Assembly (NCBI GenBank): GCA_963682175.1 | Contig: OY821770.1 | Coordinates: 16,522,501-16,586,500, forward strand | Source: Triglochin maritima | Lineage: Eukaryota > Streptophyta > Magnoliopsida > Alismatales > Juncaginaceae | DNA: 64,000 bases | Direction: 5' to 3' | Shown: piece by piece, positions 7,242 through 63,114 of the stretch | How the letters are laid out: each line of letters starts with the position of its first letter | Numbering within the stretch: the first letter of the stretch is position 1 | The notes under the pieces: generated by a model | Databases searched by the model: none | What the model was told of the DNA's origin: nothing | The model's input: only the letters and a program-made list of their open reading frames with translations | Position numbers and translations under genes: made by a program

Positions 7242-8399
7242 GTCAGAATCTTTAACTTAATTAGTCTTCTTTTCTAATATTCCGTAGGCCAGATCACTAG
7301 ATCTATATCCGCATGATGAAGTTACACATTGTGGAATTCATTTTTGATACCAATTATAAAGTATTCATGATTGGACAAACTAGATTTATTGTTATTAAGT
7401 GTTCAAGTTTGAACACTAGATCGATATTGCGTATGTGTTTTACATCTCTATTTATAACCTCCAAAAGAGTTATAGCCGTTTGGGATGAATTGGGTAAATA
7501 TTGTGTAAGATACACAAAACAGAAACTGACAGGACCCAATTATGAGTAAGTTCGGTCGACAGAATCGGGATGAACTGTCGACCGTTTGGCAATTTTGATT
7601 ATTGTTCGGTCGACCGGTAAAAGAACGGTCGACCTCCAAAGGCTATAATCTTGGTACACTTAAGTTATCGGTTGAACACCGAATAGGGTTCGGTCGACCG
7701 ATTTATAACAGGCTCTATGGGGTTGACAAACAAGATCATATTCGGTCGACCGAAACAAGTTCCTCGGTTGACCGAAAACTAACAGGAAGTTTTGGTTTGT
7801 CGAGTCTTCTTAAGTTCGGTCGACCGATACACTAAATGTATTTGGGGTATATGGAGATAATACGAATAAGACTGTTTGGTATATATGACAAAACAAACGG
7901 TCAGAAATTTGTTGTTGTTCGGTCGACCGAAAAGGTCTGGACGGTCGACCGAACTTGGGCAGTAAAACACTAATAGGATATATGATCACTCGGTTGACCG
8001 AACAGTCTATTTCGGTCGACCGAATGTGGGCAGACAATTCAACTTAAGTGTTTAGTGTTTTCTGGTCTATGTTTGGGTGATCTATTGAAGTCCAAATTAT
8101 GTGAAGTTTTGTGTGTGACTTCTATAGGGAACCTAGTGTGTGTTTGAGTAGTTTTTAGCTCAAGTATGCTCAATTACACAAAGTTCCTAAGTCTCAAAGA
8201 AACACAAATTACATGTCTTCAAATGAGCTTGATTACATGCCTTGACTTGATTTCATTTCTTCTTTGAGTCTTGATCACTTGTAGAGGTTAGCACAAAACA
8301 ATATATATGCAATGCAACATGTGTGCTACTCTACATGATCACAATTAATATTAGGTTGATTAAATCATTAAAACATAGATTAAGGCCAAAAAGCCAACA
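7242..8399 (-). mobile_element. SIRE-like copia LTR plus leader, copy A
   Basis: On the minus strand it begins TGTTGGCTTTTTGGCC at 8399, immediately after a polypurine tract. It carries the paired-palindrome array in U3, a TATA box (ggttataaatag near 7450) and, further on, a tRNA-Met-type site tggtatca near 7345 followed by ATGAATTCC. Compared with the complete family member at 41389-42782, the U5 part is missing, so LTR and leader are fused by deletion. It is about 98% identical to copy B (9901-11058) and of equal length (1158 bp). Confidence 0.85.
7553..8022. promoter_or_regulatory. Paired CGGTCGACCG palindrome array, copy A
   Basis: Palindromes begin at 7553, 7575, 7607, 7626, 7669, 7691, 7743, 7765, 7817, 7920, 7942, 7991 and 8013. 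Apart from the single one at 7817 they form six pairs with start-to-start distances of 22, 19, 22, 22, 22 and 22 bp. Eight have an intact GGTCGACC core. The others carry one or two changes, mostly C-to-T or G-to-A at CpG. The array lies in U3, upstream of the LTR TATA box on the minus strand. Confidence 0.85.
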
Positions 8400-8414
8400 A
8401 TTTCCCCCTTTTTG
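8400..8414 (-). other. Polypurine tract of the SIRE-like element
   Basis: The minus strand reads AAAAAGGGGGAAAT directly before the LTR start TGTTGG. This is the plus-strand priming site of LTR retrotransposons, and this sequence is typical of SIRE/Maximus-type copia elements. Confidence 0.85.
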
Positions 8415-9232
8415 ATGATGAGAACCTATATCTTAACACTTGAAATTTTTGGTTGTAAACTATGCATCTAAATGCTCTCCCTATAGATGTGCATAGCTTT
8501 TGTTCAATTTCAATCAAATTTCAAGTTACCCCATTTATTATCTCTCCCTATTTGACATCCATAAAAAAATATAAGAGTTAAGCATTGTGGATGCCTTGTA
8601 ATGAAGTTTCTCCCTCTAAATTTTGTATTTCATTACATTAAGAAAATGATATTCATTAAGCTCCTCCTATCAATATGAATATGATTTTTCGATTAAGTTC
8701 AATTCTTAATTCTCCCCTATTAACATCAAGTGAATATTACAATATAGCATGTGATGTATTCATTTCTCTTTTTTGACATCCATTTAAAAATTTGACATTT
8801 AAGCAAAAGATGTGATTCAAATTTAAATATTTGCAATGAATGAGTATATGATTTGTCAATTAAGCATATAAAACCTAGACTAGAACCAATTTATTCAAAA
8901 ATTTAGAGGATAAGAAATTATACCCACTTTGAAGCTTTGAATTGGTTCCAATCTCATTTGGTGATGCAACCGGCTTTGAATTTGACTCTTAAGCTTGCCC
9001 AGTCACCACCGATTTCCTCCTCAAGCACCTACAAGTGTAGATTTAGGTACCCAAACAACTTTGGGTCCTTGAATGTTAGCTTTGGGAACCGAAACCATTT
9101 TGGTTTTTGGAGCCCACACACTTGACTTGAAGAACTATGCTTTACAACTAAGTGCTTTCCATTTAAAGTTGTATGAATTACATGGTTTTTAACATATGAA
9201 TCATTATATCCCAAACCATGTTTTTGCAAAGA
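8415..9232 (-). mobile_element. 3' internal non-coding region of the SIRE-like element
   Basis: On the minus strand this runs from the gag remnant to the polypurine tract. It contains AGGGGGAGAG-like purine words typical of the long 3' region of SIRE/Maximus elements. The first about 200 nt (9230-9030) still read as decayed gag text, including the lysine/proline/tryptophan-rich spacer that follows the zinc knuckle. No protease, integrase, RT or RNase H remains, so the element could not move by itself. Confidence 0.65.
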
Positions 9233-9900
9233 TTATCTTTGACTTCCTAATAGCATATTTAGCATCTTAGTTCCATTAGTGAATCTTTCAAGATCTTTTC
9301 TTAATTGCACATTACAAGCTTGAAGATCTAATTGTTCACTACCAATGGGTATTGCTTTTAAACTTTCAATAGTTGATGCATTAGTTTCAAGTTTAGAAAG
9401 CACCTCATTTTTCTCATTCATGTTTGTTTCAATTTGGTTTTGGAGATCATTGATTAGCTTTCTAGAACTTTTGTTCTTTTCACAAATGATCTCATATTGT
9501 TTAACTAAGTCATGAAATGCATTTTGAAGCTCATCATGTGTATAAGTTTCTTCATTACCACTAGAATGTGAGCTATCACTATAATAAGACTTAGTTGAGC
9601 ATGATCTAATAGAACAAGAGTTAGAGTCTACCTCACTTTGATCATCTTCAATAGCCATGAAGCATGAGTGAGCCACCTTTCTTCTACTTTGCAAGGAAGA
9701 TGATGATGATGGTGATGAAGAGTCATCCCATTTGCCTTGTGAGCTTCCTCCTTCCTTTCTCTTCTCTTGCTCTTCTACTTTTCTCTTCTCCTCTCCCTTC
9801 CCTCATTTTTCTTCTCCCCTTCTCGTCTCTCATTTTCGCTCTCCTCCTTCTCCTTTTCTTTTTCTCTTTTCTCACTTTTTCTAACTCTTCTTTCATTTTG
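9233..9900 (-). pseudogene. Copia gag C-terminal remnant, SIRE-like
   Basis: The minus strand encodes a Lys/Arg/Glu-rich segment (9917-9723) and then, in another frame, 153 residues (9694-9233). These have CFMAIEDDQSE, a serine-rich linker, ELQNAFHDLVKQYEI and a coiled coil. This order (basic linker, FMA..., acidic/serine patch, ELQ coiled coil) is characteristic of the region after the gag zinc knuckle in SIRE/Maximus copia elements. At 9901 the leader reads directly into it, so the N-terminal half of gag is deleted. A purine-rich expansion (9740-9880) separates the two frames. Confidence 0.75.
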
Positions 9901-11058
9901 GTCAGAATCTTTAACATAATTAGTCTTCTTTTCTAATATTCCGTAGGCCAGATCACTAGATCTATATCCGCATGATGAAGTTACACATTGTGGAATTCAT
10001 TTTTGATACCAATTATAAAGTATTCATGATTGGACAAACTAGATTTATTGTTATTAAGTGTTCAAGTTTGAACACTAGATCAATATTGCGTATGTGTTTT
10101 ACATCTCTATTTATAACCTCCAAAAGAGTTATAGCCGTTTGGGATGAATTGGGTAAAGATTGTGTAAGATACACAAAACAGAAACTGACAGGACCCAATT
10201 ATGAGTAAGTTCGGTCGACAGAATCGGGATGAACTGTCGACCGTTTGGCAATTTTGATTACTGTTCGGTCGACCGGTAAAAGAACGGTCGACCTCCAAAG
10301 GCTATAATCTTGGTACACTTAAGTTATCGGTTGAACACCGAATAGGGTTCGGTCGATCGATTTATAACAGGCTCTATGGGGTTGACAAACAAGATCATAT
10401 TCGGTCGACCGAAACAAGTTCCTCGGTCGACCGAAAACTAACAGGAAGTTTTGGTTTGTCGAGTCTTCTTAAGTTCGGTCGACCGATACACTAAATGTAG
10501 TTGGGGTATATGGAGATAATACGAATACGACTGTTTGGTATATACGACAAAACAAACGGTCAGAAATTTGTTGTTGTTCGGTCGACCGAAAAGGTCTGGA
10601 CGGTCGACCGAACTTGGGCAGTAAAATACTAATAGGATATATGATCACTCGGTTGACCGAACGGTCTATTTCGGTCGACCGAATGTGGGCAGACAATTCA
10701 ACTTAAGTGTTTAGTGTTTTCTGGTCTATGTTTGGGTTATCTATTGAAGTCCAAATTATGTGAAATTTTGTGTGTGACTTCTATAGGGAACCTAGTGTGT
10801 GTTTGAGTAGTTTTTAGCTCAAGTATGCTCAATTACACAAAGTTTCTAAGACTCAAAGAAATACAAATTACATGTCTTCAAATGAGTTTGATTACATGTC
10901 TTGACTTGATTTCCTTTCTTCCTTGAGTCTTGATCCCCTGTAGAGGTTAGCACAAAGAAATATATATGCAATGCAACATGTGTGCTACTCTACATGATCA
11001 CAATTAAGATTAGGTTGATTAAATCATCAAAACATAGATTAAGGCAAAAAAACCAACA
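9901..11058 (-). mobile_element. SIRE-like copia LTR plus leader, copy B
   Basis: This is the near-identical twin of 7242-8399. On the minus strand it starts at 11058 with TGTTGG and forms the 5' side of the deletion derivative, with internal remnants 8400-9900 and copy A as the 3' side. Its right edge abuts CACTA coding sequence at 11059 (ccgtc), so the element inserted into a CACTA transposase gene. I could not find the matching left target duplication. Confidence 0.8.
10212..10681. promoter_or_regulatory. Paired CGGTCGACCG palindrome array, copy B
   Basis: Same layout as the array in copy A, shifted by 2659 bp, with the same 22/19/22/22/22/22 pair spacing. One core changed to GGTCGATC near 10348, and one that is GGTTGACC in copy A is GGTCGACC here. 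Confidence 0.85.
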
Positions 11059-14310: not shown

Positions 14311-14312
14311 CC

Positions 14313-40998: not shown

Positions 40999-41388
40999 AC
41001 CCCTCAAATTGGTCTGTGAATGTCATTCATACCCAATTTGCCAAGTAACTTCTTAAACTGATTTCCTCCCAGTGGTTTGGTGAAACTATCAGCTGGTTGT
41101 TCCAAAGTGGATATTTGTCTAATCTTGATTCTCCATTCTAAATTTTGTTTCTGTCATGATAAACCGGATTTACTGCAATGTAGAGTGCAACATTATTATA
41201 ATAGAACAACAAGGCAAGTTCTTCAACATTTACATTCAAACATTTTGGTAGAAATCTCAACTAGGTAGCTTCATGACCCTATATTCAGCTTCACATGAGG
41301 ATTTGGAAACAACTGTCTATTTCTTGGATTTCCATGAAATCAAAGAGTCACCCAAGAACACACAAAAGCTTGTGACAAATCTCCTACC
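40999..41388 (-). pseudogene. Copia RNase H C-terminal fragment
   Basis: The minus strand encodes FCVFLGDSLISWKSKK, then a stop, then SSCEAEYRVM, and further on ADSFTKPLGGNQFKKLLGKL and NDIHRP before a terminal stop. This is the end of a Ty1/copia pol (RNase H with its SEAEYR motif, then the DxFTKPL tail). Introduced stops show it is dead. It is the left half of a relic whose other half is 42788-43135, separated by a solo LTR. Confidence 0.85.
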
Positions 41389-42782: not shown

Positions 42783-42787
42783 CTACC

Positions 42788-43404: not shown

Positions 43405-43590
43405 CTAAAGTATATCAAAATCTCGCAAGAATCAACCGCCGGAGAACACTTGAATTCATGGAAACAAAAATCGCCGAAGTGGTTTTTCGTTGAGAGAAAG
43501 GTAGATAAAAGACGTATATTTCATAGGTGGATTGCAAGACATTTTATAATAGTCTATGCACAAAAATAGGACCCCTTAACCCCACAAACT

Positions 43591-45640
43591 TGTAGGATTT
43601 CAAGTTTAATTGTACATATTTATTTTCGAAATTTTTATGCACAATAAGGATCAATTTACAATTTTCTATGATTTATTTCATGCATGCATCAATTTGTTTC
43701 AATAACTAGTTTCAAAACTTTATTAAAACAAATATGGGCTCCGAAATTCATACCTAGAAGTTCTCTAAAACTTCTTGAAGGTTCGGAGACGTTGGGGATG
43801 CTCCTCGCTGCGCCGGATGCCTCCGAGTATTCACCAAACTCTAAACAAGATCGGAGAGAGGGAAGCTAGTCTCTCAATCTCCGATAGGGTTTAGAATCCA
43901 ATTACTAACCCCTCTTTAATTCCCTTGAGAAGATGATCTCTTAAGAACTAAAACTAAACTTAAGAATTAAGAGATTTTCGTGGAGAATTATGGAGATAGA
44001 ATTTTTGCATGAGAAAGCAATGAACGAATTAAGGAGGTAATGAGATAAACTTGTATTTATAAGTTCTCTCCAAATTACCTATTCATGTGCAACCTCTTGC
44101 CCATGATTTCATGCAAAATTCCATCTAACCATCCATTATTTAATAATAAATAATATTAGCCACGAATTAAATCAATTATGGATCAATTCCATGCATGATC
44201 TAATTAATTCTTAAATTAATTCTGCATTAACCGTCTGGACCGGTCGACCGTTTGGAGGTTCGGTTGACCGCTCGAACCAGGTGTCGATCGACCGTTCAAT
44301 AACTCGGTCGACCGTTCGTAATAGGAATTATTCCATCGCTATGTTCGGTCGACCGACCGATGACATTCGGTCGACCGTGCGAACAGATGAAAATTCCCTG
44401 TTATCGGTCGAGACATGTCCGGTCGACCGTGTCCTATCGGTCGACCGTTTACTGCTAACCGGTCGACCGTTGGAGCACTGTTCTGCAGACTTGTCAAATT
44501 TCGGTTTAACCCCTACAAAATTTGACATTTCGGGATTAGTAGTAAATTCACAACTTATGTAACATATTATCCTATGTAATGATCAATCATTACACCCCAT
44601 AACATTTACATCACATATGAATTTAATTTAGATTCTAATTATGTTATTAATCACAACATAATTTTGATTTTGCTTGTTCACCCCATGTGTCATATTTTCT
44701 ACATGAAACCCGACACATCTTATGAACTTAAAATCCCCATTTCTTGTTTCCCAGTTTTGTGGTGTGACCTATGGGAGGATCTAAACTAAGTTGGCAGTGA
44801 TATTAAGAGCTTAATATTACAAGCTATAAGCGGTATCTAGCTACACATTATAGCTCCCAATTAGTTAGATGTCTTAATTCCACTCGAACCAAAACCCGAT
44901 CCATTTAGTGATGGAGTGCACCACTTGTGTCCGTCCCTTGCCTCATGATATTAAGAATACACACAAAGTAGTATTGTGTCATCTTTGTATTAGTATTCAT
45001 TTCTTGATCTCTTCAAGCTAGTTATAAATATGTGACTTAACTCAAATCACATTGTGTACATTATAACTTTGCTTTATCAAGGGGCCCACTAATATCATCA
45101 CTCAATTAAGAGGGGCAATGATAATCTTTTGACTAACTATCTTCTCCAACGAAAGTTATGCTTAACCAACTAATGTCTTTACACTACACTCATCAATAGC
45201 TCAAGACACTAGTCTAATTAAGAACTCCTTAAGCGATCAGATATAAGTCTCATATCAAAGGACCAAGGACACAGTAAAATATTAATGACACAGAAACACA
45301 TTCCTATAATATTTTACTTGTTAGGTCAATTCGGTATACAAAAGTACTATTTTCCTCTTTTGTGTACCCGTGTTGTCACTCACTTGTAGAGCTAAAATGA
45401 TCTATGACCAACACGACAATCTTAACTCGGTAATTAATGTCCCATGTTAATTACCATGATTGCGAATATCTTTTGTTTTATGTAAACCAATATCTTTTAG
45501 AGCTCTACGGTTAAGGACCAAGAGCCTCTTCCTCAACACTTCCAAAAGACGAATAACATAAACAAGGAACAAAATGATTTCTCATTCAATTCATAATAAT
45601 TGACATTTAAAAGTAAAACTTTTAGAACACATTCCCTTCA
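43591..45640 (-). mobile_element. 3' LTR of the copia element
   Basis: On the minus strand it starts TGAAGGGAATGTGTT at 45640 and ends GAAATCCTACA at 43591. TATA (aacttataaatac) lies near 44055. The U3 palindrome array is at 44241-44469. It contains 44 bp with an extra palindrome pair near 44270-44315 that the 5' LTR lacks. Confidence 0.95.
44241..44469. promoter_or_regulatory. Palindrome array in the copia 3' LTR
   Basis: Seven exact GGTCGACC cores plus variants. Pair spacers are 10 bp (44241 with its partner), 10, 12, 5 and 12 bp (the last two sites, ending at 44469). The array lies about 170 bp upstream of the TATA box on the minus strand. The two pairs with a 12-bp spacer match the commonest geometry of the SIRE-like and gypsy LTRs. 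Confidence 0.8.
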
Positions 45641-45651
45641 ATCTCCCACTT
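45641..45651 (-). other. Polypurine tract of the copia element
   Basis: The minus strand reads AAGTGGGAGAT directly upstream of the 3' LTR start TGAAGG. Confidence 0.85.
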
Positions 45652-45724
45652 GTTATTAAAGTTTTCTTTCTCATACATACTCAATGCATAAAACAATAAT
45701 AACTAGGGTAAACCCCATTACATA

Positions 45725-48700
45725 TCAATCATCAAGCCAATCTACATGGTTCCTCAATCCCATGGACTCGAAATGCATTTCGCCCTTGGCTTGGGATAAG
45801 GGTTTTGTGAATGGATCAGCTGTGTTGCTGTTGGTGTCCACCCATAACAGATTTATTTTGCCTTCGTCGATGAGGTCACGCGTCACGAAGTACTTACGAT
45901 CCATGTACTTCACTTTGTGGTGTGATTTGAGATCCTTGATTTGCGAGATAGATGCACTATTGTCGCAAAATAGCTCTATTGGTCCCTCGCTCGAGGGAAC
46001 TACTCCAAGCTCTTCAAGGAACTTCTTAATCAACACTCCTTCCTTGTTCGCTTCAGCGACAACCATTACTTCGGAAGCAGTGGTTGAGTCGGCCGTAGTG
46101 CTTTGCTTCCAACTACGCCAACTCACAGCTCCACCATTCAGAAGGAAGACGTATCCTGATTGCGACCTTCTATCGTCTGGATCACTCATGAAACTCGCAT
46201 CCGAGTAACCTTCCGCTATTAATTCCCTTTGTCCTCCATAAACAAGAATCTTATCCCTAGTCCGGTTAAGGTACTTCAGGATATTCTTGACCGCAGTTCA
46301 ATGCTCAGGACCTGCGTTGGATTGGTGACGACTTGTCACGCTTAGAGCATACGAGACATCGGGTCTTGTGCAAGTCATCGCGTACATGATCGACCCAATT
46401 GCCGAAGCATAAGGGACATCCTTCATCTACTCTAAGTCCTTACAAGATTGAGCACGTTGAGACTTCTTGAGTTGCACACCCATACTCATTGGCACACTGC
46501 CCTTTTTGGAGTTGTTCATCTTGAACCTTTCCAAGACCTTGTCAATGTATGTACGTTGACTCAGGCCAATGAGTCTACGGGATCTATCTCGGTATATCTT
46601 GATTCCCAAGATGTATTGAGCCTCACCCATATCTTTCATTGAAAATGGAGATTTCAATGAACTTCTCGTTTGCTCAAGCAAAGGAATATGATTGCCCATA
46701 AGCAATATGTCATCGACATACAAGATTAGGAATACTACATGACTCCCACTAACCTTATTGTATATACAAGGTTCTTCCTTACTTTGAATGAAGTGAAGCT
46801 TCTTCACTTCCTCGTCAAAGCATTTGTTCCAACTCCTTGATGCTTGCTTCAATCCATAAATGGATCTTTGAAGCTTGCATACCTTCTCGCTATTCTTTGG
46901 ATCTTCAAAACCTTGAGGCGGTACCATGTACACATCCTCCTCCAAGTTCCCATCGTGAAATGCGGCAATAGCGAGCATGATCCGAATAGACTTGAACATG
47001 GCAACCGGTGAAAAAGTTTCATCATAGTCAATTCCTTGAACTTGAGTGAAACCCTTCGCTACAAGCCTTGCTTTGTAGGTTGTCAGGTTCCCATCCATGT
47101 CCATCTTCCTCTTAAAAACCCATTTATTATGAATGACCTTTTTACCTTGAGGAAGGTCAACCAAGTCCCATACTTGATTATCATACATGGATTCTATTTC
47201 GGATTCCATGGCCTTGAGCCATAGTTTGGAGTCTTCCCTCTCCATTGCTTCTTGGAAGGTCAAGGGATCATTGGTATCTAGTACCATGATTTCATGAAGT
47301 CCCAGATAAATATCGGGTTTCTTCTTTTCCCTCGTTGACCTTCTAAGTTCTTTTGGTTCTTCTCGTGTCTCTCGAACTTCTTCCACAATTTCTTGAGGAA
47401 TCGGTTCATGTTCAACTCTTGAACGTACACTTGGTGGGGACGCTTGAGATTCTCTCACAATTTCTTGTGATGGTCTATCGCTCACGCTCCCACTAACCAA
47501 AGGAATCTCGGTTGGGCCTTCATGATCTTGAATGTTATCATTCATGTCATGATCTTGTAGAGTATCTTGCGTTTCCTCAAGCACAACCCTACTCCCACTA
47601 CTTTTTACTCTTTCTAGAAATTCCTTTTCCAGAAATGTGGCATCCTCTCTACAATCACTCGATTGGAGGTGATATGCTAAAAGTAGTATCCTCTTGTCTC
47701 ACGAGGATAACCAATAAAGAAGCACTTATCCGCTTTTGGTTGAAGTTTGGTCGACATCAATCTCTTGACGTAAGCCTCACAACCCCAAATCTTGAGAAAA
47801 TTGAGCTTAGGTGTTTTACCACTCCATAGCTCATAAGGCGTTTTCTCCACGGATTTGGATGGAACATTATTTAGTGTGTAAGCCGCAGTTTGTAGTGCAT
47901 AACTCCAAAAGTAAAGAGGTAATTCCGCATGACTCATCATTGACCGAACCATGTCGAGCAATGTCTTATTCCTCCTTTCGGATACCCCATTCCACTGAGG
48001 TGTTCCGGGAGGGGTGAGTTGAGGTATACTACCAAACTCCTTTAGATATGAGTCAAATTCGGCACTTAAGTACTCACCTCCACGATCCGTTCGTAGAGAC
48101 TTGATTTTCTTGTCGAGTTGGTTATCTACTTCATTCTTGAATTCTTTGAACTTGTCGAAGGATTCACTTTTGTTTCTCATTAGATAAACATAGTCATAAC
48201 GACTATAATCATCCGTGAACGTAATGAAGTACCTGAAACCATCTCGTGCACTAGTACTCATTGGACCACATACATCGGAATGTATCAAATCCAACAAGCC
48301 ACTCGCCCTTGGGCCTTTCTTCTTGAAAGGCTTTTTGGTCATTTTTCCCATTAGACATGGTTGGCACGTCTCCAATGATTTAAAATCAAGTAGACCAAGA
48401 AGGTTAGCTTCTTGCAATTTCTTGATGCGCTTTTCATTTATGTGACCAAGACGATAGTGCCACAAGAGAGTATCATTCTCGTGAGTGGTATTAAGTCTTT
48501 TGTTATTGATATTAAAGATTAGTTTATTATTCAATTCAAGCAAATAGAGACCATTCCTTACGAACGCATTTGCATAGAAAACTCCATTCTTCGATATAGA
48601 CAAACAAGAATTTGAAATATTTATATTAAAATTATCCATATCCAGACATGATACAGAAATAATATTCTTGCTAATCGAAGGTACATAATAAACATTCTTT

Positions 48701-49794
48701 AGACATAAATTTAAACCACTACATAATTGAAGCACCACAGAACCTTGTGCAACCGCAGAAACGTTCGCACCATTTCCGACCTTCAATTCAATCTCGTTCC
48801 GTACGAGTTCCTTCCTATCCTTGAGTAGCTGCACATTAGAAACTATGTGAGCACAAGATCCGGTATCAATTACCCAATCCTGGACAGAGGTGGCTAAATT
48901 TATTTCAATAACAAATATACCTTTGGCCTTTTTGGGGCGCCGACGTTCAATCACTCCGTTGCCAAGGTCTTCCTTGTACTTGGGGCAATTTGGCCGGATG
49001 TGTCCTTTTTCACCGCAGTGAAAGCACTCCGTATTGGGAGTTGGAGATTTCTGAGATTTCCCCCTCGAGGCACTCTTATGAGCACCTCCTACTCCCTTGC
49101 TCTTGATTGAACCACTTTTGGTAGATTTGCCCTTTCCTTTACCAATCTTTTGGCTCCTCCCATGGACGGCAAGGACTTGCTTGTCTCTACCCTTGCCCAT
49201 GTCAACTTCAGCAGTTTTGAGAGCGTTGTGAAGCTCCTCAAGACTCACCCCTTTTTCACGCACGTGATAGTGCATCACAAAGTCCTTAAAGGACGGGGCT
49301 AGAGAGCCAAGAATCATATCTTCAGCAATGTCCTCGGGCATTGGTGAAGAGAGCTTTGCCAACTTCTCAAGGTATCCTTGCATCGTGAGAAAATGCATAG
49401 ATACCGATGTTCCCTCCGCCATATGGCACCTTGTGAGTGCGATGGTGGTCTTATAGTGCTCCTTTCGGGCACTATCCATGAACATCTTTGATAAAGCCTC
49501 CATGGTCTTCTTGGGTTTTGAATCCAAGTATTTCGCTTGAAGCGAGTCACCCATGGATGCTAGCATAAGACCGTGAACTTGGTTCTCTTGGTCGTCCCAC
49601 TTGGCTTTAGCCTCTTTCTCTTCATCGGTTAATCTCTCATTCCACTTTCGGATTGGACCTTCCAAAATGTGAGATAGTTTCTCAAACTTTAACACGATGT
49701 TGAGTTTGAGTTGCCAACTAATGAAGTTTGAGCCATCATTTGCTAAAGGGTGTTTTTCTATCATGGATCGTACGATAGGTTGGATGTTCGACAT
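45725..49794 (-). pseudogene. Copia gag-pol polyprotein
   Basis: The start is ATG 49794 (MSNIQPIVRSMIEK), downstream of a long leader; the upstream open codons lack gag features. Domains in order are UBN2 gag, zinc knuckle CFHCGEKGHIRPNC, protease WVIDTGSCAHI, GAG-pre-integrase LLWHYRLGHI, integrase with HSDVCGP, RTDRGGEY and NGVSERRNKT (all three catalytic residues present), RT with LYVDDILL, and RNase H with EGYSDASF and LFCDNSAS. Lesions are a stop at the end of GYYF (47677) and a frameshift about 30 codons later, a stop at 46427, and Trp-to-stop TGA at 46298-46300. In RT the segment FHDGNLEED lacks about 14 residues, including the first catalytic Asp. The element makes copies only if helped in trans. 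Confidence 0.95.
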
Positions 49795-51261
49795 TTTTCT
49801 ACAAAATAAATCATATAGGATTTTAATGCCAATTTTTATGTTTATTATACATACATACAAATGTAAATGTTGCAAATAAAAAAAATTGTTCATAAATGCA
49901 ACAATACAAGATCCCATTAATTGTAATAGACTAGCTAAGGGCTATCGAATACATTACAACATCAAGGTAAGAAAAACATTTTCTAATCACAACCTTTTTG
50001 AATTTTAGCAATATTAGCATCTTCAAACTCTTGTGATTCTTGTCGTTTTAATTATGAGGGAATGCGACCTATCCTCGTAAGAAAAACTTTTTCCCAAAAC
50101 CGAGCGAGGGCTCTAGGTAATGTTAAGAAAACTTATTTTCATTTGATACGAGATACGTTTATCCATTGTATTCACAACTAAACATACTTGGGGTTCACTA
50201 GGGTGAAACACACCTCATACATTTAATCGTGGCACAACAACAGACAACCATTATATCTCCCACTATTCCCAAAGATAGAGGGAGCTATCTCCCGCTAAGG
50301 GCGAGCAGAGTATCCCTCAATCAATGGCTGCTAGTGGATGAAATAAGAAGGAAATTATTCTTAATTTTTGTTGGACAATTTCATATATTTACATGTGATT
50401 TGGAATTTTAGGTTATCATGCATATTAATATTCATACACATCCTAACATTCACCACATTCATCACATGCATAACAGAAATTAAAAACAGAAATTAAACAT
50501 TCACACAATCCACATCGTGTGAGTTTATATGTTCCCTTCGATCCTCGATCCTCGATCGATGTGCTACAGCGGTGACTTCCTCTTGCACCGGAGATGTAGA
50601 TTTTACAGAAAATAAACATGCTCCTCACATTCGATAAAAACCGACTAGTGCAAGTCCTATGTAAAACCTCTCATATGCATAAGCAATTATCTAAAAGATG
50701 GAAATAGAGAATTTGGCTTTTACATACATAAGCCCCTGTATTATAACAATTATAAACATTCATAGGCGCTGATTTGGAACATATAAACTCACAATTCCTG
50801 CAAAAAACAACTCGAGCATCCATGCACGCAATATCGCTATAAACTATCCACCCTAGTTTATCAAGCATCTAGAATCTCAAACAATTCTTTGAAAAACATT
50901 TTGAAATCCATTAAAAACGTTTTTCATGCATCCATAGTTCAAAAATTAATGATGAACCGCTGTCCATCCAATTTCCAATGGAAAGATGAACCGCAGTTTT
51001 TTCGGTTTCGTTGATTCTCTTACAAAATAATCGTTTATACTTAAAACGAAATTATTGCAAGTTAGACAAATGTCTAAATCTTAATTCTAATAATTACATG
51101 ACATGTTTTAAAATACTTAAAATATTCAGAATGAATTGTTATGGAGAATTACATCAACAAACATTCGTAGACCGAAAAAACCGGTAAATCGAATTGTTTA
51201 AATCCTAGATGGTAAACTAAATTCGTTTACAACCTTAAATCATGAGAAAATTGAACCCTAA
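49795..51261 (-). mobile_element. Copia leader between the primer-binding site and gag
   Basis: About 1.5 kb, AT-rich, with no ORF of note. Long leaders are common in this type of copia element. Nothing else is recognisable. Confidence 0.6.
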
Positions 51262-51273
51262 GCTCTGATACCA
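51262..51273 (-). other. Primer-binding site (initiator tRNA-Met)
   Basis: The minus strand has TGGTATCAGAGC one base after the 5' LTR end (CCTACA). This is the standard 12-nt match to the 3' end of plant initiator tRNA-Met. Confidence 0.95.
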
Positions 51274-51274
51274 C

Positions 51275-53280
51275 TGTAGGATTTCATGTTTAATTGTACA
51301 TATTTATTTTCGAAATTTTTATGCACAATAAGGATCAATTTACAATTTTCTATGATTTATTTCATGCATGCATCAATTTTTTTCAATAACTAGTTTCAAA
51401 ACTTTATTAAAACAAATATGGGCTCCAAAATTCATACCTAAAAGTTATCTAAAACTTCTTGAAGGTTCGGAGACGTTGGGGATGCTCCTCGCTGCGCCGG
51501 ATGCCTCCGAGTATTCACCAAACTCTAAACAAGATCGGAGAGAGGGAAGCTAGTCTCTCAATCTCCGATAGTGTTTAGAATCCAATTGCTAACCCCTCTT
51601 TAATTCCCTTGAGAAGATGATCTCTTAAGAACTAAAACTAAACTTAAGAATTAAGGGATTTTTGTGGAGAATTATGGAGAGAGAATTTTTGCATGAGAAA
51701 GCAATGAACGAATTAAGGAGGTAATGAGATAAACTTGTATTTATAAGTTCTCTCCAAATTACCTATTCATGTGCAACCTCTTGCCCATGATTTCATGCAA
51801 AATTCCATCTAACCATCCATTATTTAATAATAAATAATATTAGCCACGAATTAAATCAATTATGGATCAATTCCATGCATGATCTAATTAATTCTTAAAT
51901 TAATTCTGCATTAACCGTCTGGACCGGTCGACCGTTTGGAGGTTCGGTCGACCGTTCGTAATAGGAATTATTCCATCGCTATGTTCGGTCGACCGACCGA
52001 TGACATTCGGTCGACCGTTCGAACAGATGAAAATTCCCTGTTATCGGTCGAGACATGTCCGGTCGACCGTGCCCTATCGGTCGACCGTTTACTGCTAACC
52101 GGTCGACCGTTGGAGCACTGTTCTTCAGACTTGTCAAATTTCGGTTTAACCCCTACAAAATTTGACATTTCGGGATTAGTAGTAAATTCACAACTTATGT
52201 AACATATTATCCTATGTAATGATCAATCATTACACCCCATAACATTTACATCACATATGAATTTAATTTAGATTCTAATTATGTTATTAATCAAAACATA
52301 ATTTTGATTTTGCTTGTTCACCCCATGTGTCATATTTTCTACATGAAACCCGACACATCTTATGAACTTAAAATCCCCATTTCTTGTTTCCCAGTTTTGT
52401 GGTGTGACCTATGGGAGGATCTAAACTAAGTTGGCAGTGATATTAAGAGCTTAATATCACAAGCTATAAGCGGTATCTAGCTACACATTATAGCTCCCAA
52501 TTAGTTAGATGTCTTAATTCCACTCGAACCAAAACCCGATCCATTTAGTGATGGAGTGCACCACTTGTGTCCGTCCCTTGCCTCATGATATTAAGAATAC
52601 ACACAAAGTAGTATTGTGTCATCTTTGTATTAGTATTCATTTCTTGATCTCTTCAAGCTAGTTATAAATATGTGACTTAACTCAAATCACATTGTGCACA
52701 TTATAACTTTGCTTTATCAAGGGGCCCACTAATATCATCACTCAATTAAGAGGGGCAATGATAATCTTTTGACTAACTATCTTCTCCAACAAAAGTTATG
52801 TTTAACCAACTAATGCCTTTACACTACACTCATCGATAGCTCAATACACTAGTCTAATGAAGAACTCCTTAAGCGATCAGATATAAGTCTCATATCAAAG
52901 GACCAAGGACTTAGTAAAATATTAATGACACAGAAACACATTCCTATAATATTTTACTTGTTAGGTCAATTCGGTATACAAAAGTACTATTTTCCTCTTT
53001 TGTGTACCCGTGTTGTCACTCACTTGTAGAGCTAAAATGATCTATGACCAACACGACAATCTTAACTCGGTAATTAATGTCCCATGTTAATTACCATGAT
53101 TTCGAATATCTTTTGTTTTTTGTAAACCAATATCTTTTAGAGGTCTACGGTTAAGGACCAAGAACCTCTTCCTCAACACTTCCAAAAGACGAATAACATA
53201 AACAAGGAACAAAATGATTTCTCATTCAATTCATAATAATTGACAGTTAAAAGTAAAACTTTTAGAACACATTCCCTTCA
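51275..53280 (-). mobile_element. 5' LTR of the copia element
   Basis: Same tips as the 3' LTR, starting at 53280 on the minus strand and ending at 51275 beside the primer-binding site. TATA lies near 51740. It lacks the 44 bp that hold two palindromes in the 3' LTR; the remaining seven exact cores are at 51925-52109. Confidence 0.95.
51925..52109. promoter_or_regulatory. Palindrome array in the copia 5' LTR
   Basis: Seven exact GGTCGACC cores. Pair spacers are 10, 12, 5 and 12 bp. The first pair joins the outer sites of two former pairs across the 44-bp deletion, yet keeps the 10-bp spacer. Confidence 0.8.
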
Positions 53281-53284
53281 AAAC

Positions 53285-53955
53285 TGTTAGATCCTAACTC
53301 TTCTTAATGCCTAATTGTGTTTAGGGGAGGTTTATAGAAGATTGAGATGGACGACTGAGATGGATTGAGGAGATTTGTATATAAGGTTCGGATTTCTCTC
53401 TCTCACTTCTCTCTCTCTCTCGCGTGCATTTCTCTCTCTCACTCTCATTTCCTTCCATGTTCCAGCCAGAGAAGTTGTGAGGTGTGATCGACGACACCCG
53501 GAGAGGCTCGGAAGGTTGCCGTAGTTGAGGAGATCATGTTCGTGAAGTTCACCGAAGAAGGAGTGCGTGGAGAAGCTCGCTGTGGTTCTTCAAAGACTTC
53601 TTTAAGCCTTAAGGTATGTCAAACTTGCTTTTATGCTCACCTATTATTAGTGTGGGAGTGGGAGTGGTTGACGGTAGGCCGTATGGCTCGTCGGACATGC
53701 ACAACAGTTTTTATGCACTATAACGGTCGACCGGTGTTTTGGGTTCGGTCGACCGATTGTAGTGTATTTTGGGCAATATCCCTCGCACCGGTCGAACGAT
53801 ACCTTTGAGTGGTCAACCGGTCGTGCATTTTGAGAGAAAGATGGAGGTTCTAGGTACTTTCGATCGGACGGGCCCCCCTTGCCGGTCGGCCAAAAGTACT
53901 ATTGTAGGTCGGTTGGGGCATTAACCATCCAAACGGTCGACCGCCTGTTTGACTC
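53285..53955 (+). mobile_element. Truncated 5' LTR of the chromovirus
   Basis: It starts TGTTAGATCCTAACTC and aligns with 62157-62832 of the 3' LTR, then breaks at tgtttgactc, where gag-like sequence begins (gagatcg). The last about 1 kb of the LTR, the primer-binding site and the start of gag are therefore deleted. TATA (tgtatataagg) lies near 53377, followed by a CT microsatellite. Confidence 0.9.
53724..53943. promoter_or_regulatory. Palindrome array in the chromovirus 5' LTR
   Basis: Three exact cores and several variants. Pair spacers are 12 (53724 with 53746), 11 and 12 bp. In contrast to the copia LTRs the array is downstream of the TATA box, in the transcribed part. Confidence 0.8.
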
Positions 53956-55302: not shown

Positions 55303-57339
55303 TGAAGGGAATATGTTCTAAAAGTTTTACTTTTAAATGTCAATTGTTATGAATTGAATGAGAAATCATTTTGTTCCTTGTTTATGTTATTGTCTTTTAG
55401 AAGTGTTAAGGAAGAGGCTCTTGGTCCTTAACCGTAGAGCTCTAAAAGATATTGGTTTACATAAAACAAAAGATATTCGCAATCATGGTAATTAACATGG
55501 GACATTAATTACCGAGTTAAGATTGTCGTGTTGGTTGTAGATCATTGTTGCTCTACAAGTGAGTGACAACACGGGTACACAAAAGAGGAAGATATTACTT
55601 TTGTATACTGAAGAGACCTAATAAGTAAAATATTATAGAAATGTGTTTCTGTGTCATTAATATTTTACTGTGTCCTTGGTCCTTTGATATGAGACTTATA
55701 TCCGATCACTTAAGAAATGCTTGATTAGACTAATGTCTTAAGCTATCGATAAGTGTAGTGTAAAGGCATTGGTTGATGAAGTATGACTTTCGTTGGAAAA
55801 GATAGTTAGTCAAAAGATTATCATTGCCCCTCTTAATTGAGTGATGATATTAGTGGGCTCCTTGATAAAGCAAAGTTATAATGTGCACAATGTGATTTGA
55901 GTTAAGTCACATATTTATAACTAGCTTAAATAGATCAAGAAATGAATACTAATACAAAGATGACACAATACTACTTTGTGTGTATTCTTAATATCATGAG
56001 GCAAGGGACGGACACAAGTGGTGCACTCCATCACTAAATGGATCGGGTTTTGATTCAAGTGGAATTAAGACATCTAACTAATTGGGAGCTATAATGTGTA
56101 GCTAGATACCACTTATAGCTTGTGATATTAAGTTATTAATATCACTGCCAACTTAGTTTAGATCCTCCCATAGGTCACACCACAAAACTGGGAAACGAGA
56201 AATGGGGATTTTGAGTTCATAAGATGTGTCGGGTTTCATGTAGAAAATATGACACATGGGGTGAACAAGCAAAATCAAACTTGTGTTGTGATTAATAACA
56301 TAATTAGAATCTAAATTAAATTCATTTGTGATGTAAATATTATGGGGTGTAATGATTTATCATTACGTAGGATAATATGTTACATAAGTTATGAATTTAC
56401 TACTAATCCCGAAATGTCAAATTTTGTAGGGGTTAAACCAAAATTTGACAAGTCTGCAGTACTGTGCACAAACGATCAACTGGTTAACAGTAAACGGTCA
56501 ACCGAACGTGCACGGTCGACCGGACACGTCTCGACCGATAACAGGGAATTATCGTCTGTTCGGAACGGTCGACCGAATCTATCGGTCGGTCGACCGAACA
56601 TTGCGATGAAATATTTTATTGTTGCGAGCGGTCGACCGAATGTCGAACAGTCGACCGAAACTTGGTTCGAGCAGTCGACCGAACCTCCAAACGGTCGACC
56701 GGTCCAGACGGTTTTATGCAGAATTAATTAGATCATGCATGGAATTGGTCCATAATTGATTTAATTCGTGGCTGAGATTATTTGTTAGCAAATAATGGAT
56801 GGTTAGATGGAATTTTGCATGAAATCATGGGTAAGAGGTTGCACATGAATAGGTAATTTGGAGAGAACTTATAAATACAAGTTTATCTCATTACCTCAAA
56901 ATTAATTCATTGTTTTTCTCATGCAAAAACTCTCTCCATAATTCTCCACGAAATTTCCTTAATTCTTAAGATTAGTTTTAGTTTTCAGAGATCATCCTCT
57001 CAAGGGAACTAAAGAGGGGTTAGTAATTAGATTCTAAACCTTATTGGAGATTGAGAGGCTAGCTCTTCTCTTTCCAATCTCGTTTAGAGTTTGGTGAATA
57101 CTCGGAGGCAATCCACCGGGCGATTCAACCGTCAACGCGACTCTGGATCTTTGAGAGGTTTTAGAGAACCTCTAGGTATGATCCTCTTTGCAATTGTTTG
57201 TTTATTCTAACGCATGTTAAATAATTAGGATAAACAAATACATGTCTATATGAAAATCGAAGAAAATATGAATACTACGATCCTATATGTTTATAAAATT
57301 TCGAAAATATATACATACTATAGGGCACGAAATCCAACA
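55303..57339 (+). mobile_element. Solo LTR of the copia family, inside the chromovirus
   Basis: 2037 bp from TGAAGGGAATATG to CGAAATCCAACA. The target duplication is gcttt on the left (55298-55302) and gattt on the right (57340-57344), one mismatch. Removing the LTR and one duplicate rejoins the gypsy frame as KKLLIPRQGLPDLL. TATA is near 56868. Similarity to the resident copia LTRs is high but lower than that between those two, so it is an older insertion of the same family. Confidence 0.95.
56495..56701. promoter_or_regulatory. Palindrome array in the solo copia LTR
   Basis: Five exact GGTCGACC cores and several variants (GTCGACCG preceded by CA instead of CG). Pair spacers are 8, 11, 9 and 10 bp, less regular than in the other arrays, upstream of the TATA box. 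Confidence 0.75.
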
Positions 57340-59666: not shown

Positions 59667-59900
59667 TGTTAGGATCTATGACCCTCTAATCAATAGAAAA
59701 ATGCGGAATTAAAAATACTAATCGAAGGATTAAGGAAGAGACAATTGCAAACCACAAATTCGTCGACACCGGAGTTTAGAGAGGTTCGGCACCCACACCC
59801 GGGTCCTAGTCCTCCTCGCAAGCCTCGCTCGATCCCCCGAGCCTCGCTTACGGTTCCACTAACCGATCTCCGTTCCGGGCCGAGACCAACGCCGTTTACA

Positions 59901-60282
59901 ACACCGAGCCTCGCGAACAATCTCGCCTCGCTCGTGTCTCCTCTCACAACCCGAGAGGGAGCTTCCTCGAAGCTTTACAACTTGGTGATTCTTGAATAAG
60001 GAATTGGAATCACAATCTAACTAACACTCTATACTTGAGCACACTTGGATATGATATGGAATTGGATATGCAAGTGGTGAAGTTTAGGTACAACACCGAG
60101 CCTCGCGAACAATCTCGCCTCGCTCGTGTCTCCTCTCACAACCCGAGAGGGAGCTTCCTCGAAGCTTTACAACTTGGTGATTCTTGAATAAGGAATTGGA
60201 ATCACAATCTAACTAACACTCTATACTTGAGCACACTTGGATATGATATGGAATTGGATATGCAAGTGGTGAAGTTTAGGCT
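59901..60282. repeat. 192-bp tandem duplication within the solo LTR
   Basis: acaccgagcctcgcgaacaa occurs at 59901 and again at 60093. The intervening 192 bp, through the ggatatgcaagtggtgaag segment, are repeated almost without change. The other LTRs of the family have one copy, so this is a recent local event. Confidence 0.9.
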
Positions 60283-60488
60283 TGAGTGTTGTGGATTGAG
60301 AGCTTGAAGATGGAGAGGATTTGGCTTTGAGTATTGGATAGATAGGAAGTGTTCAAGATCTTCAAAGCAACCAAATGAGGTCCTATTTATAAGCCTTCAA
60401 GCTCATCTAGCCGTTTGGGAGTTGGTGGGGAATGGACCAATGAGAAAGCAAGATGTGACTTAAGCTCGGCCAGAAATCGAGACAGATT

Positions 60489-61065
60489 TGGTCGACCGTT
60501 ATCCACACGGTAGTCCGAAACATTGGTCTGAACAAAGAACTCGGTTGACCGATTATGTATCGGATCACCGTTCACCAACCTCCAGTAGCTTTTATCTATT
60601 TAGCCCTAATTAAATTCGGTTCACCGAAGTCCATTCGGTTCACTGTTCCAAGGTGGACAGTAGAATTGATTGGGCTCTGATCTACTCAAGTTCGGTTGAC
60701 CGTGTATACTTCGGTATACCGAAGTAGCGCGGGAATTGCGCTGACAAAGCGTGGGAGATTGGTTTACCGATAACGGTCAAGTTAAATAGCCGTTGGTCTC
60801 CTAAAGCAATATGATTCGGTTGACCGAATGAAGTTCGGTGTACCGAATATGGATAAGTCAATTTGGCTTTAGGTCAAGATTTAAATACGACCGTTGGAGC
60901 AAAGTCCAAAACCGGTCCAGGTTAATTCGGTCTACCGAAGGCGGTTCGGTATACCGAGGTGGTTATTCCAGGGAACACCTAAAGGATTCTACACGGTTGA
61001 CCGCAAGGTGTTCGGTGGACCGAACTCTACAAGATTCGGTTTACCGAGAAGGGTTCGGTTAACCG
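60489..61065. promoter_or_regulatory. Paired GGT-NN-ACC palindrome array with 19-bp period
   Basis: At least 16 sites of the form CGGT-NN-ACCG lie in 580 bp, with centre dinucleotides CG, TG, TC, AT, TT, GT, CT, GG and TA. They form eight pairs, and every pair has a spacer of exactly 9 bp; examples start near 60693/60712, 60816/60835, 60927/60946, 60994/61013 and 61037/61056. Spacer sequences are unrelated. The array is in U3. Confidence 0.85.
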
Positions 61066-61376
61066 TGGGGATACGGGACAGAATCCTAATGTGCTCAAGT
61101 TTACATTAATCCTTAGGACTCAAATTATACTACATTACATATTGGTCCAAAGCTTGATTACATGTCTTGAGTCTTTATCTTCTTGTCCCCAAGCTCCTTA
61201 GCTTGATTCTTCATCAACCTATTAAGAATATCGCAAGTGCACGAATATATATGCAATGCATGTATTCATGTTTGCTTACTTTGATTGTCTAGGTTGATTG
61301 ATTAAATATAGATTAAGATTAGATTACTTAATCATCAAAACTAAATAAAGATTAAGGCTAAAAAGCCAACACTATT

Positions 61377-62123: not shown

Positions 62124-62143
62124 TTTTGTGGGAGAAATTCTTT

Positions 62144-62156
62144 AAGGAGGGTGGAT
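62144..62156 (+). other. Polypurine tract of the chromovirus
   Basis: AAGGAGGGTGGAT lies directly before the 3' LTR start TGTTAG. Confidence 0.9.
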
Positions 62157-62599
62157 TGTTAGATCCTAACTCTTCTTAATGCCTAATTGTGTTTAGGGGA
62201 GGTTTAGAGAAGATTGAGATGGACGACTGAGATGGATTGAGGAGATTTGTATATAAGGTTTGGATTTCTCTCTCTCACTTCTCTATCTCTCGTGTATTTC
62301 TCTCTCTCTCTCTCTCTCTCTCATTTCCTTCCACCTTCTAGTCAGAGAAGTTGTGAGGCGTGATCGACGAAACCCAGAGAGGCTCGGAAGGTTGCCGGAG
62401 TTGAGGAGATCGTGTTCGTGAAGTTCACCGAAGAAGGAGTGCATGGAGAAGGTCGCCGTGGTTCTTCAAAGGCTTCTTCAAGCTTTAAGGTATGTCAAAC
62501 TTGCTTTTACGCTCACCTATTATTAGTGTGGGAGTGGGAGTGGTCGACGGTAGGCCGTATGGCTCGTCGGACCTGCACAACAGTTTTTTTGCACTATAA

Positions 62600-63114
62600 C
62601 GGTCGACCGGTGTTTTGGGTTCGGTCGACCGGTTGTAATGTATTTTGGGCAATATCCCTCACACCGGTCGAACGATACGTTTGTGTGGTCGAGCGATCGT
62701 GCATTTTGAGCGAGAGATGGAGGCTCTGGGTACTTTCGGTCGGACGGGACCCCTTTGCCGGTCGACCGAAAGTACTGTCGTAGGTCGGTTGGGGCGTTGA
62801 CCATCCAAACGGTCGACCGCTTGTTTGACTCCTCTGACTGACGACTTAAGTTAACTTAATGGCCGGTCGACCGGAAGCGTTGTTTCGGTCGACCGTGTAG
62901 TGTGGATTGTTGGTGAGTTGTACTGGTGTATTTCGGTCGACCGGAGATGTTGGGTTGTTCGACCGTGTGATCTTTGTTTGCGAAAAGTTTTCTTACTGGT
63001 GCTTTTCGGTCGAATGGGTCCCCTTTGTCGTTCGACCGATTGGTGAGTTTTTCGGTTGGGTCAGTCCTCTAGGTGAGGATTCGGTCGACCGAAGAGCTTC
63101 TTTTCGTTAGACCG
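62600..63114. promoter_or_regulatory. Paired palindrome array in the chromovirus 3' LTR
   Basis: Eight exact GGTCGACC cores and about as many variants form roughly eight pairs. Spacers are 12 bp in at least five (for example 62600/62622 and 62863/62885) and 11 or 13 bp in two. The array starts about 350 bp downstream of the TATA box, so it would be part of the transcript. Confidence 0.85.

Follow-up and report, generated by a model that had tools for sequence, protein, structure and literature searches.

The LTR activator boxes of the Tnt1/Tto1 type are short repeated promoter-proximal elements that govern LTR transcription. To our knowledge, these boxes are known from single families and are not common to copia and gypsy elements. 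A closer counterpart of the arrays described here is the repeated motif (RM) of Sireviruses. Bousios 2010 (PMC2829016) describes palindromic RMs, 12 of 13 with a CGG-CCG core. Each element has at least eight copies, which are grouped in the LTR ahead of a TATA box. Table 3 of that paper gives the RM of the Vitis Sirevirus as exactly CGGTCGACCG, and CGGT...ACCG arms are also found in the RMs of Osr10, Osr8, Barbara, and Inga. The RM was termed Sirevirus specific and absent from classic copia elements, a common binding protein for the RMs could not be named, and a word search of the main text turned up neither doublets nor a fixed spacing. The maize Sirevirus palindrome CACCGGACNNNGTCCGGTG (Bousios 2016, as cited in PMC5311732 and PMC10760457) clusters in the cis-region of the LTR. 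The same palindrome is given in PMC10760457 as the most abundant Helitron motif, at 10.7% of the structured regions of Helitrons, and is therefore a precedent for occurrence across superfamilies.

Palindrome arrays in the window and their published counterparts

The window is a 64,000-nt stretch of Triglochin maritima DNA (GCA_963682175.1, contig OY821770.1, positions 16,522,501 to 16,586,500, forward strand). It contains 53 exact copies of CGGTCGACCG compared to a shuffle mean of 0.01, 59 exact copies of GGTCGACC compared to 0.31 by chance, and 122 positions that match the palindrome at ≤2 mismatches compared to about 5 expected. The earlier note had counted about 55 to 60 exact cores by eye, which is right because the exact count of GGTCGACC is 59. 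The presence of palindrome arrays in the LTRs of three families, which it had reported, was confirmed, and a motif scan recovered all the locations it had named in SIRE-like copia, second copia, and gypsy LTRs. For single LTRs, the numbers of sites were 12, 13, 17, 9, 8, and 11 for SIRE_A, SIRE_B, fam4, copia2_a, copia2_c, and the Tekay-like gypsy LTR, respectively.

Like the Sirevirus RM, these arrays consist of a palindrome with a CGG-CCG core, and the 53 exact copies are identical to the Vitis RM. The level of at least eight copies is matched in all six of these LTRs, with 7 exact sites in the copia2 5′ LTR. However, the motif is not restricted to Sireviruses here: copia2, whose junctions are not those of Sireviruses, carries it, as does the RVT_1 gypsy element. 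The maize palindromes differ in sequence and were interpreted, in PMC5311732 and PMC10760457, as small-RNA hotspots and secondary structure. The Tnt1/Tto1-type boxes are likewise short repeats in the LTR, whereas the motif in the window spans copia and gypsy elements. The proposal that no module of this kind had been described did not hold, because a 2010 paper (PMC2829016) had already reported the identical 10-mer and its grouping ahead of the TATA box in Sireviruses. As far as searched, the new points are the doublet grammar and the occurrence in gypsy and non-Sirevirus copia elements; the palindrome itself was already known.

Fifty-two of the 53 exact 10-mers lie inside the eight listed arrays; the exception, at 31011, belongs to an old SIRE-type LTR. 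The statement that essentially none occur outside the LTRs of these families was nearly right, but it missed a fourth array and degraded arrays in or near older LTRs. For instance, relaxed sites numbered 1 and 0 at 11.1 to 28.0 kb and 33.0 to 41.3 kb compared to 1.0 and 0.87 in shuffles, whereas the older SIRE-type LTRs at 4630 to 6465, 30278 to 31704, and 31705 to 32878 had 5, 2, and 4 compared to 0.23, 0.10, and 0.07, respectively. Tandem Repeats Finder did not list the palindrome as a tandem array where the arrays lie, and an ordinary tandem repeat was rejected on this basis. No Rfam match at the gathering score and no tRNA were found in the window.

The host elements

The SIRE-type LTR SIRE_A copy 1 (7242 to 8399, minus strand) starts with TGTTGGC and is 97.6% identical to copy 2 (9901 to 11058, minus strand). 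The end of copy 1 opposite TGTTGG is not recognizable, and the LTR is preceded by AGGGGGAA-AT/TG at 8400 to 8409, which, in this one LTR, has 7 of the 8 bases of the Sirevirus tract AGGGGGAG-AT/TG. Its array (7553 to 8022) has 12 sites at ≤1 mismatch with spacings of 22, 32, 19, 65, 52, 22, 52, 103, 22, 49, and 22 bp, and the array in copy 2 (10212 to 10681) has 12 sites with the same spacings. SIRE_B (41389 to 42782, plus strand) is a solo LTR with the 5-bp target-site duplication CTACC at 41384 to 41388 and 42783 to 42787; its identity to SIRE_A is 92% in the initial 129 bp and 74% across the array, which has 13 sites (41648 to 42140). The third SIRE-type LTR, fam4 (59703 to 61371, minus strand, the 59703 end being approximate), lies within the gypsy element and also starts with TGTTGGC; with motifs masked, it resembles the start of SIRE_A and the 3′ part of SIRE_B. 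It holds the fourth array (60489 to 61065), composed of CGGTNNACCG in 17 sites, with eight 19-bp doublets. The fam4 site centers are mostly not CG, and among the 12 sites with perfect arms there are 8 differing centers, so that the arms are kept and the center is free, as would be expected for a dimer spacer. This array and the 19/22-bp doublet regularity were both absent from the earlier note. As for coding sequence of the SIRE lineage, the translated copia2 and gypsy proteins matched only themselves in the window.

The second copia element, copia2, is full length (43591 to 53280, minus strand), with LTRs at 43591 to 45640 and 51275 to 53280 and the target-site duplication AAACT at 43586 to 43590 and 53281 to 53285. 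Its Pfam domains are RVT_2, rve, and Retrotran_gag_2, and its gag-integrase and reverse transcriptase sequences are in two overlapping frames (46430 to 49941, minus strand; RVT_2 at 8.8e-65 and others). The arrays in its 3′ LTR (44241 to 44469) and 5′ LTR (51925 to 52109) have 9 sites and 7 exact sites, respectively. A solo copia2 LTR within the gypsy element (55303 to 57339, plus strand), 87 to 89% identical to the other two, has an array of 8 sites (56495 to 56701). In addition, a degraded array of 4 sites at 2 mismatches (29411 to 29605) adjoins an old copia2-like LTR stretch (28241 to 29304, ∼75% identity). The Sirevirus marks sought in copia2, namely, AGGGGGAG with AT/TG, the LTR/primer junction CA/ATTGGTATCAGAGC, and several linker tracts, were not found: the element has AGTGGGAG-AT/TG and CA/GTGGTATCAGAGC, AGGGGGAG occurs nowhere within it, and a single AGGGGGAA lies inside pol at 49058.

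The gypsy element (53285 to ∼63830, plus strand) encodes gag, RT (RVT_1, 8.2e-32), an integrase zinc domain (Integrase_H2C2, 1.4e-14), and a weak chromodomain (6.1e-4), which is under the curated cutoff (20.1 versus 25.1 bits) and is the basis of the designation Tekay-like. Its truncated 5′ LTR (53285 to 53955) retains an array remnant of 3 exact and further degraded sites (53724 to 53943). The array in the 3′ LTR (62157 to ∼63830) extends from 62600 to 63114 and has 15 sites at ≤2 mismatches when counted from 62560 onward, with five adjacent pairs at exactly 22 bp. By pattern match alone, this array is flanked by a splice-donor-like motif (62488) and an acceptor-like motif (∼63567), and a second acceptor-like motif is at 63117.

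Doublet spacing and position relative to TATA

Most sites had a partner at 18 to 24 bp, chiefly at 19 or 22 bp. The frequencies of partnered sites were 83%, 92% (12 of 13), 94%, 100% (9 of 9), and 100% (8 of 8) for SIRE_A, SIRE_B, fam4, copia2_a, and copia2_c, respectively, compared to 26 to 37% for random placement (P of 0.0023 or less in each), the 18- to 24-bp range having been picked after inspection of the data. The doublet rule was weaker in the Tekay-like array (55%; P = 0.065). Adjacent spacings of exactly 22 bp numbered 4, 4, 2, and 5 in SIRE_A, SIRE_B, copia2_a, and the Tekay-like array compared to 0.23 to 0.34 expected, and there were none in copia2_c or fam4. Within families, the 12-bp spacers of the 22-bp pairs were more alike than shuffles (5.06 versus 4.01 of 12; standard deviation, 0.33), and the regularity is therefore partly due to local duplication.

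Phasing near 10.5 bp was apparent when the three families were pooled (R = 0.617; n = 33) and when fam4 was added with all spacings (R = 0.503; P = 0.0003), but it failed for spacings of >26 bp with fam4 added (R = 0.207; P = 0.40) and was absent in fam4 alone (R = 0.30). Some arrays were better fitted by other periods. Helical phasing as a general rule was therefore dropped, and the claim is restricted to the doublet distance. Two further candidate features were rejected. Inner half-sites were not more degraded than outer ones (15 versus 9; P = 0.31), a clear lean being found in the Tekay-like array alone (10 versus 1), and no symmetric flank extended past the 10 bp, the first flank position being 43% complementary compared to 40% expected, with a weak T/A preference. 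A TATAWA motif was found downstream of the array in five of the five copia-type LTRs examined, ∼100 to 180 bp past the last site by hand measurement. However, TATAWA also occurs within or ahead of the array in some of these LTRs, and in the Tekay-like LTR one TATA motif (LTR position 94) precedes the array and another (1570) follows it; the TATA evidence is therefore soft.

Relatedness of the LTRs and conservation of the sites

After masking of the motifs, BLAST between LTRs of different families gave a best E value of 0.30, which lies within the 1.8e-5 to 2.2 obtained as best values from 20 shuffled sets. The families therefore show no sign of descent from one ancestral LTR, and no other LTR similarity between them rose above noise. 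Similarly, the 12-bp spacers were no more alike across families than in shuffles (3.87 versus 3.85 of 12; 11 spacers from SIRE_A, copia2_a, and the Tekay-like array). Between SIRE_A and SIRE_B, identity was 91.7% in motifs and 65.3% in array spacers (P = 3.7e-9), and identity dropped to 50% when the frame was shifted by 10 bp. This difference was significant in one of six comparisons, and the remaining five were equal or in the same direction. In three LTR pairs, CpG loss was 2 of 67 in motifs compared to 25 of 87 outside (P = 1.2e-5).

The motif outside the window

The arrays are seemingly not limited to this locus, given the Vitis Sirevirus (PMC2829016) and a plant-like contig, L027, apparently from a Velloziaceae root metagenome. 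In the latter, which is unrelated in sequence to the window, 21-bp doublets occur three times, and a member of one of them is degraded; the contig gave no Pfam match above the cutoff and no match to the window gag. Of six loci in bacterial genome contigs, five had head-to-tail sites at a 21-bp period, and L027 alone was plant-like. Among viral contigs, an exact-pair scan picked out 23 stretches, each holding 2 or 3 exact sites; the G+C content was at least 0.58 in 20 of them. The three-palindrome pattern was found in one viral stretch (L006; G+C, 0.68; 3 exact sites), and L003 had 11 sites at ≤1 mismatch, four of them within a 19-bp tandem repeat. Bacterial and phage relatives were rejected, the viral stretches being mostly high in G+C and the bacterial-contig loci mostly head to tail at a 21-bp period. 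A search for further copies via pol proteins in viral contigs confirmed none.

Candidate docking sites for a dimeric protein

We consider it likely, with a probability of roughly 0.6, that the arrays are clustered doublet cis-sites for a dimeric sequence-specific DNA-binding protein in a transcriptional control region. The half-site would be CGGT, and each palindrome would consist of two half-sites in opposite orientation with 2 bp between them (CGGT-NN-ACCG, with the center usually CG); two palindromes, separated by about two helical turns (most commonly 19 or 22 bp), would then make up a doublet, and each array would offer 3 to 8 doublets. Since the array lies upstream of a TATA motif in copia-type LTRs, an enhancer-like promoter-proximal role would be likeliest. 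The protein, which is probably host encoded, may read the arrays as a dimer or a pair of dimers and may activate rather than silence, and the three families may have acquired or kept the motif under the same selection.

Unrelated spacers argue against a recent transfer of the array between families and fit either common selection or an ancient transfer with saturated spacers. Template switching between elements is established, and the 22- plus ∼51-bp rhythm is common to SIRE_A, SIRE_B, and the Tekay-like array; recombination or template switching could have carried one ancient array from family to family, with its spacers diverging fully while motif and spacing were constrained. We regard this as unlikely, because spacers and flanks are not shared across families, the gypsy array is in a different LTR context, and the degraded arrays in old SIRE-type LTRs and by the old copia2-like stretch suggest that these two families have carried arrays for a long time. 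Somewhat less probable still is that the doublet palindromes pair in the transcript as hairpins that feed small-RNA production, the arrays being mainly silencing targets or RNA structures. The RNA folds of three arrays were indeed more stable than those of dinucleotide-shuffled sequences (z of −7.9, −6.5, and −6.9 for SIRE_A, fam4, and the Tekay-like array, respectively), compensating changes were seen between the members of the SIRE_A doublet 10212/10234 and partly in the Tekay-like 63007/63029, and the maize palindromes are reported small-RNA hotspots (PMC5311732 and PMC10760457). However, good folding is built into any array of a single palindrome, and hairpins need complementarity of partners alone, not self-palindromic sites with identical letters across unrelated families; moreover, the partner centers, read from the site list, were fully complementary in none of the eight fam4 doublets. 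The likeness of spacers within families could also mean that the palindromes have no function and that local duplication or some mutational process spread them. This appears very improbable, given the Tandem Repeats Finder result, the better conservation of motifs, with three CpGs each, than of spacers between SIRE_A and SIRE_B, and the identical 10-mer in three families and in Vitis (PMC2829016).

A broader version of the docking-site reading is offered more tentatively. A plant protein, host or element encoded, may read CGGT-NN-ACCG doublets two helical turns apart, copia and gypsy elements of distant plants may have converged on them independently, and one trans-factor might switch several families or shield them from silencing. 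The motif is found in non-Sirevirus copia and gypsy elements with equal doublet spacing but with spacers that are not related. This pattern points to a trans-acting factor common to these elements, for which two palindromes 22 bp apart provide a defined bait. The prediction is that several retrotransposon families would be regulated jointly.

Palindrome arrays in three element groups

The palindrome observation is real and strong. Exact CGGTCGACCG, a 10-mer with arms CGGT-NN-ACCG, was found 53 times in the window compared to a shuffle mean of 0.01, and its core GGTCGACC, counted separately, 59 times compared to 0.31. When up to two mismatches were allowed, there were 122 positions (53, 32, and 37 with zero, one, and two mismatches, respectively) compared to ~5 expected from 20 simulations of a first-order Markov model. 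The LTR arrays indeed sit where the earlier note had placed them, and relaxed sites in long stretches free of these elements were at or below chance (1 at 11.1 to 28.0 kb, shuffle mean 1.0; 0 at 33.0 to 41.3 kb, shuffle mean 0.87). A separate minisatellite at 2648-3077 (22-bp period, unit TATTCCGGACAGACAAACATCG, ~19.5 copies) holds the palindrome TCCGGA once per consensus unit and showed no link to the LTR arrays. Tandem repeats of ATTCGGATTCGAATTCGA-like units occur at 952-1108 and 31567-31659, inside a shared inverted repeat (911-1377 versus 31703-31202).

Three element groups were defined from self-comparison, junctions, and Pfam. The SIRE-type LTRs, all of which start with TGTTGG or TGTTAG, include the two copies of SIRE_A (7242-8399 and 9901-11058), the solo LTR SIRE_B (41389-42782, CTACC duplication), fam4 (61371-59703), and older LTRs starting at 4630, 30278, and 32878. 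One of them is preceded by AGGGGGAA-AT/TG, which is one base away from the published Sirevirus tract; since copia2 and gypsy proteins, the only queries used, revealed no SIRE coding sequence in the window, the label rests on LTR marks. The second copia family, copia2, consists of a full minus-strand element (43591-53280; AAACT duplication, RVT_2 and integrase domains; LTR, copia2_a) and a solo LTR, copia2_c (55303-57339). Neither the tract of copia2, AGTGGGAG, nor its junction with the primer site, CA/GTGGTATCAGAGC, is that of Sirevirus. The third is a gypsy element (53285 to ~63830) in which RVT_1 and Integrase_H2C2 were recognized, together with a chromodomain match too weak to pass the cutoff; it is plausibly a Tekay member (lineage names after PMC6317226). 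In the 53281-53290 region, the AAACT duplication of copia2 and the gypsy LTR (TGTTAG) have the first LTR base in common, which suggests that copia2 landed one base in from the edge of the gypsy element.

The fam4 array (60489-61065), in the third SIRE-type LTR, was overlooked by the earlier note. It has 12 sites with perfect CGGT/ACCG arms and eight different centers, and five further sites with one arm mismatch; its 8 doublets are all spaced 19 bp. Fixed arms with a free center match the expectation for a dimer with a 2-bp spacer. The fam4 LTR also contains an exact 192-bp tandem duplication (59897-60280), which is either recent or an assembly artifact because the copies are 100% identical.

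By pattern match only, TATAWA occurs ~100 to 180 bp downstream of the last site in SIRE_A, SIRE_B, fam4, copia2, and copia2_c; the first three of these LTRs have extra matches that precede the array or fall within it. The gypsy LTR has matches at LTR positions 94, ahead of the array, and 1570, beyond it. The gypsy array might lie within a leader intron, since it is bracketed by splice-donor-like AGGTATGT at 62488 and an acceptor-like sequence near 63567, with an additional acceptor-like match at 63117 (all pattern matches only). Downstream of this array is a 26-bp tandem repeat, CGTGGCTCCGGTGAATGAGGCAAAGC, of ~7 copies (63260-63441).

Spacing and conservation of the sites

For doublet analysis, sites were called by arms CGGT-NN-ACCG with one arm mismatch allowed. 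The share with a partner at 18 to 24 bp, a range picked after inspection, was 0.83, 0.92, 0.94, 1.00, 1.00, 0.55, and 0.80 for SIRE_A, SIRE_B, fam4, copia2_a, copia2_c, the Tekay-like element, and the plant-like contig L027, respectively, compared to 0.19 to 0.37 for random placement. Pairing gave P values of ≤0.0023 for the first five, 0.065 for Tekay-like, and 0.029 for L027, the seven arrays not being independent because SIRE_A/SIRE_B and copia2_a/copia2_c are homologous. Over the six window arrays, the commonest adjacent distances were 22 bp (15 times: 4, 4, 2, 0, 5, and 0 in SIRE_A, SIRE_B, copia2_a, copia2_c, Tekay-like, and fam4, respectively) and 19 bp (11 times), and none fell between 25 and 31 bp. 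SIRE_A, copia2_a, and Tekay-like together have 11 pairs at 22 bp (the four in SIRE_B, being homologous, were not used); the 12-bp identity of their spacers was at shuffle level across families (3.87 versus 3.85, standard deviation [SD] 0.21) and above it within families (5.06 versus 4.01, SD 0.33). Two Tekay-like spacers are visible near-copies, so local duplication contributed to that array.

Helical phasing of the sites is suggestive only. Pooling the 33 spacings of SIRE_A, copia2_a, and Tekay-like gave a 10.5-bp vector of 0.617, with a phase of 0.16 bp, matched by 0 of 4,000 random placements; with fam4 added (46 spacings) it was 0.503 (P = 0.0003), and for fam4 by itself 0.30 (P = 0.32). 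The best period per array ranged from 10.0 to 14.0, the latter being the edge of the scan. With short spacings removed, the three families were still phased (R = 0.589, P = 0.004), and the signal was gone when fam4 was included (R = 0.207, P = 0.40).

Between the SIRE_A and SIRE_B arrays (10 and 15 gapped columns left out), 10 of 120 motif positions differed compared to 121 of 349 spacer positions (P = 3.7e-9). Since 64 of 381 positions differed beyond the array, the array spacers evolve faster than the rest of the compared LTR part. When just one of the two sequences was used to call sites, identity was 0.917 at the motif, 0.50 ten bases downstream, and up again at the doublet partner. Motif and spacer identities did not differ significantly in the other five comparisons: copia2_a versus copia2_c (0.929 and 0.851, P = 0.16), Tekay-like LTRs (0.931 and 0.906, P = 0.65), SIRE_A copies (0.983 and 0.983), the two copia2 LTRs (1.000 and 0.983, P = 0.53), and copia2 versus an old copia2-like stretch (0.544 and 0.426, P = 0.10).

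When LTR pairs were each treated as one element, which is uncertain for SIRE_A with its junction lacking a primer site, CpG differences were 2 of 67 in motifs compared to 25 of 87 outside (P = 1.2e-5), although site calling slightly favors intact motifs and sequence context differs between the two. By element, these were 1/32 versus 4/14 for SIRE_A (P = 0.025), 0/21 versus 4/37 for copia2 (P = 0.29), and 1/14 versus 17/36 for Tekay-like (P = 0.009). The low value in motifs would be consistent with sites that are covered by protein or little methylated.

Occurrence outside the window

A three-palindrome pattern search of bacterial genome contigs yielded six loci. Five (L024, L025, L026, L028, and L029) have head-to-tail CGGTCGACCG-containing repeats with a period of exactly 21 bp, a multiple of three, and are perhaps coding repeats. 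The remaining locus is the 3.1-kb contig L027 (G+C 0.44; longest reading frame, ≤124 residues), which had been assigned to an Acidobacteriota bin (CP_BM_ER_20) and which holds three doublets spaced 21 bp, one of them with a degraded member. Its motif-masked sequence matched the window at E = 0.23 at best. Because its name and k147 tag agree with the external-root metagenome of Barbacenia macrantha, as described in PMC9938248, we infer that it is plant DNA binned with a bacterium.

Origin and possible role of the arrays

What is common to the families is the motif and not, detectably, the LTR. With all sites of up to three mismatches masked and sensitive BLAST settings (LTR ends being estimates, off by a few bases to 30 for some), the best between-group E value was 0.30, within the range of the smallest E values of 20 shuffled sets (1.8e-5 to 2.2); this bears out the earlier note, which could find no further LTR sequence in common. 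Within-group matches persisted (SIRE_A/SIRE_B, 2.6e-41; SIRE_B/fam4, 6e-37; copia2_a/copia2_c, 0). The arrays may stem from an ancient transfer between families.

The earlier note knew of no such module, but CGGTCGACCG is already published for the Vitis Sirevirus in PMC2829016, where it is called Sirevirus-specific and a common binding factor could not be found; in the window it also occurs in copia2 and gypsy LTRs. No earlier report of sharing across copia and gypsy was found among the matches listed in open-licence literature. What is new, as far as this literature reaches, is the cross-family sharing of the palindrome together with the doublet grammar.

According to PMC5311732 and PMC10760457, maize palindromes are small-RNA hotspots, and in the latter Helitrons carry the same palindrome as the maize elements. 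Silencing through an RNA hairpin may explain the arrays; it is not favored by fam4, where 0 of the 8 doublets have fully complementary centers between partners. The best reading, to which we give a probability of about 60%, is a dimeric DNA-binding protein that would act through the palindromes on the LTR control region.
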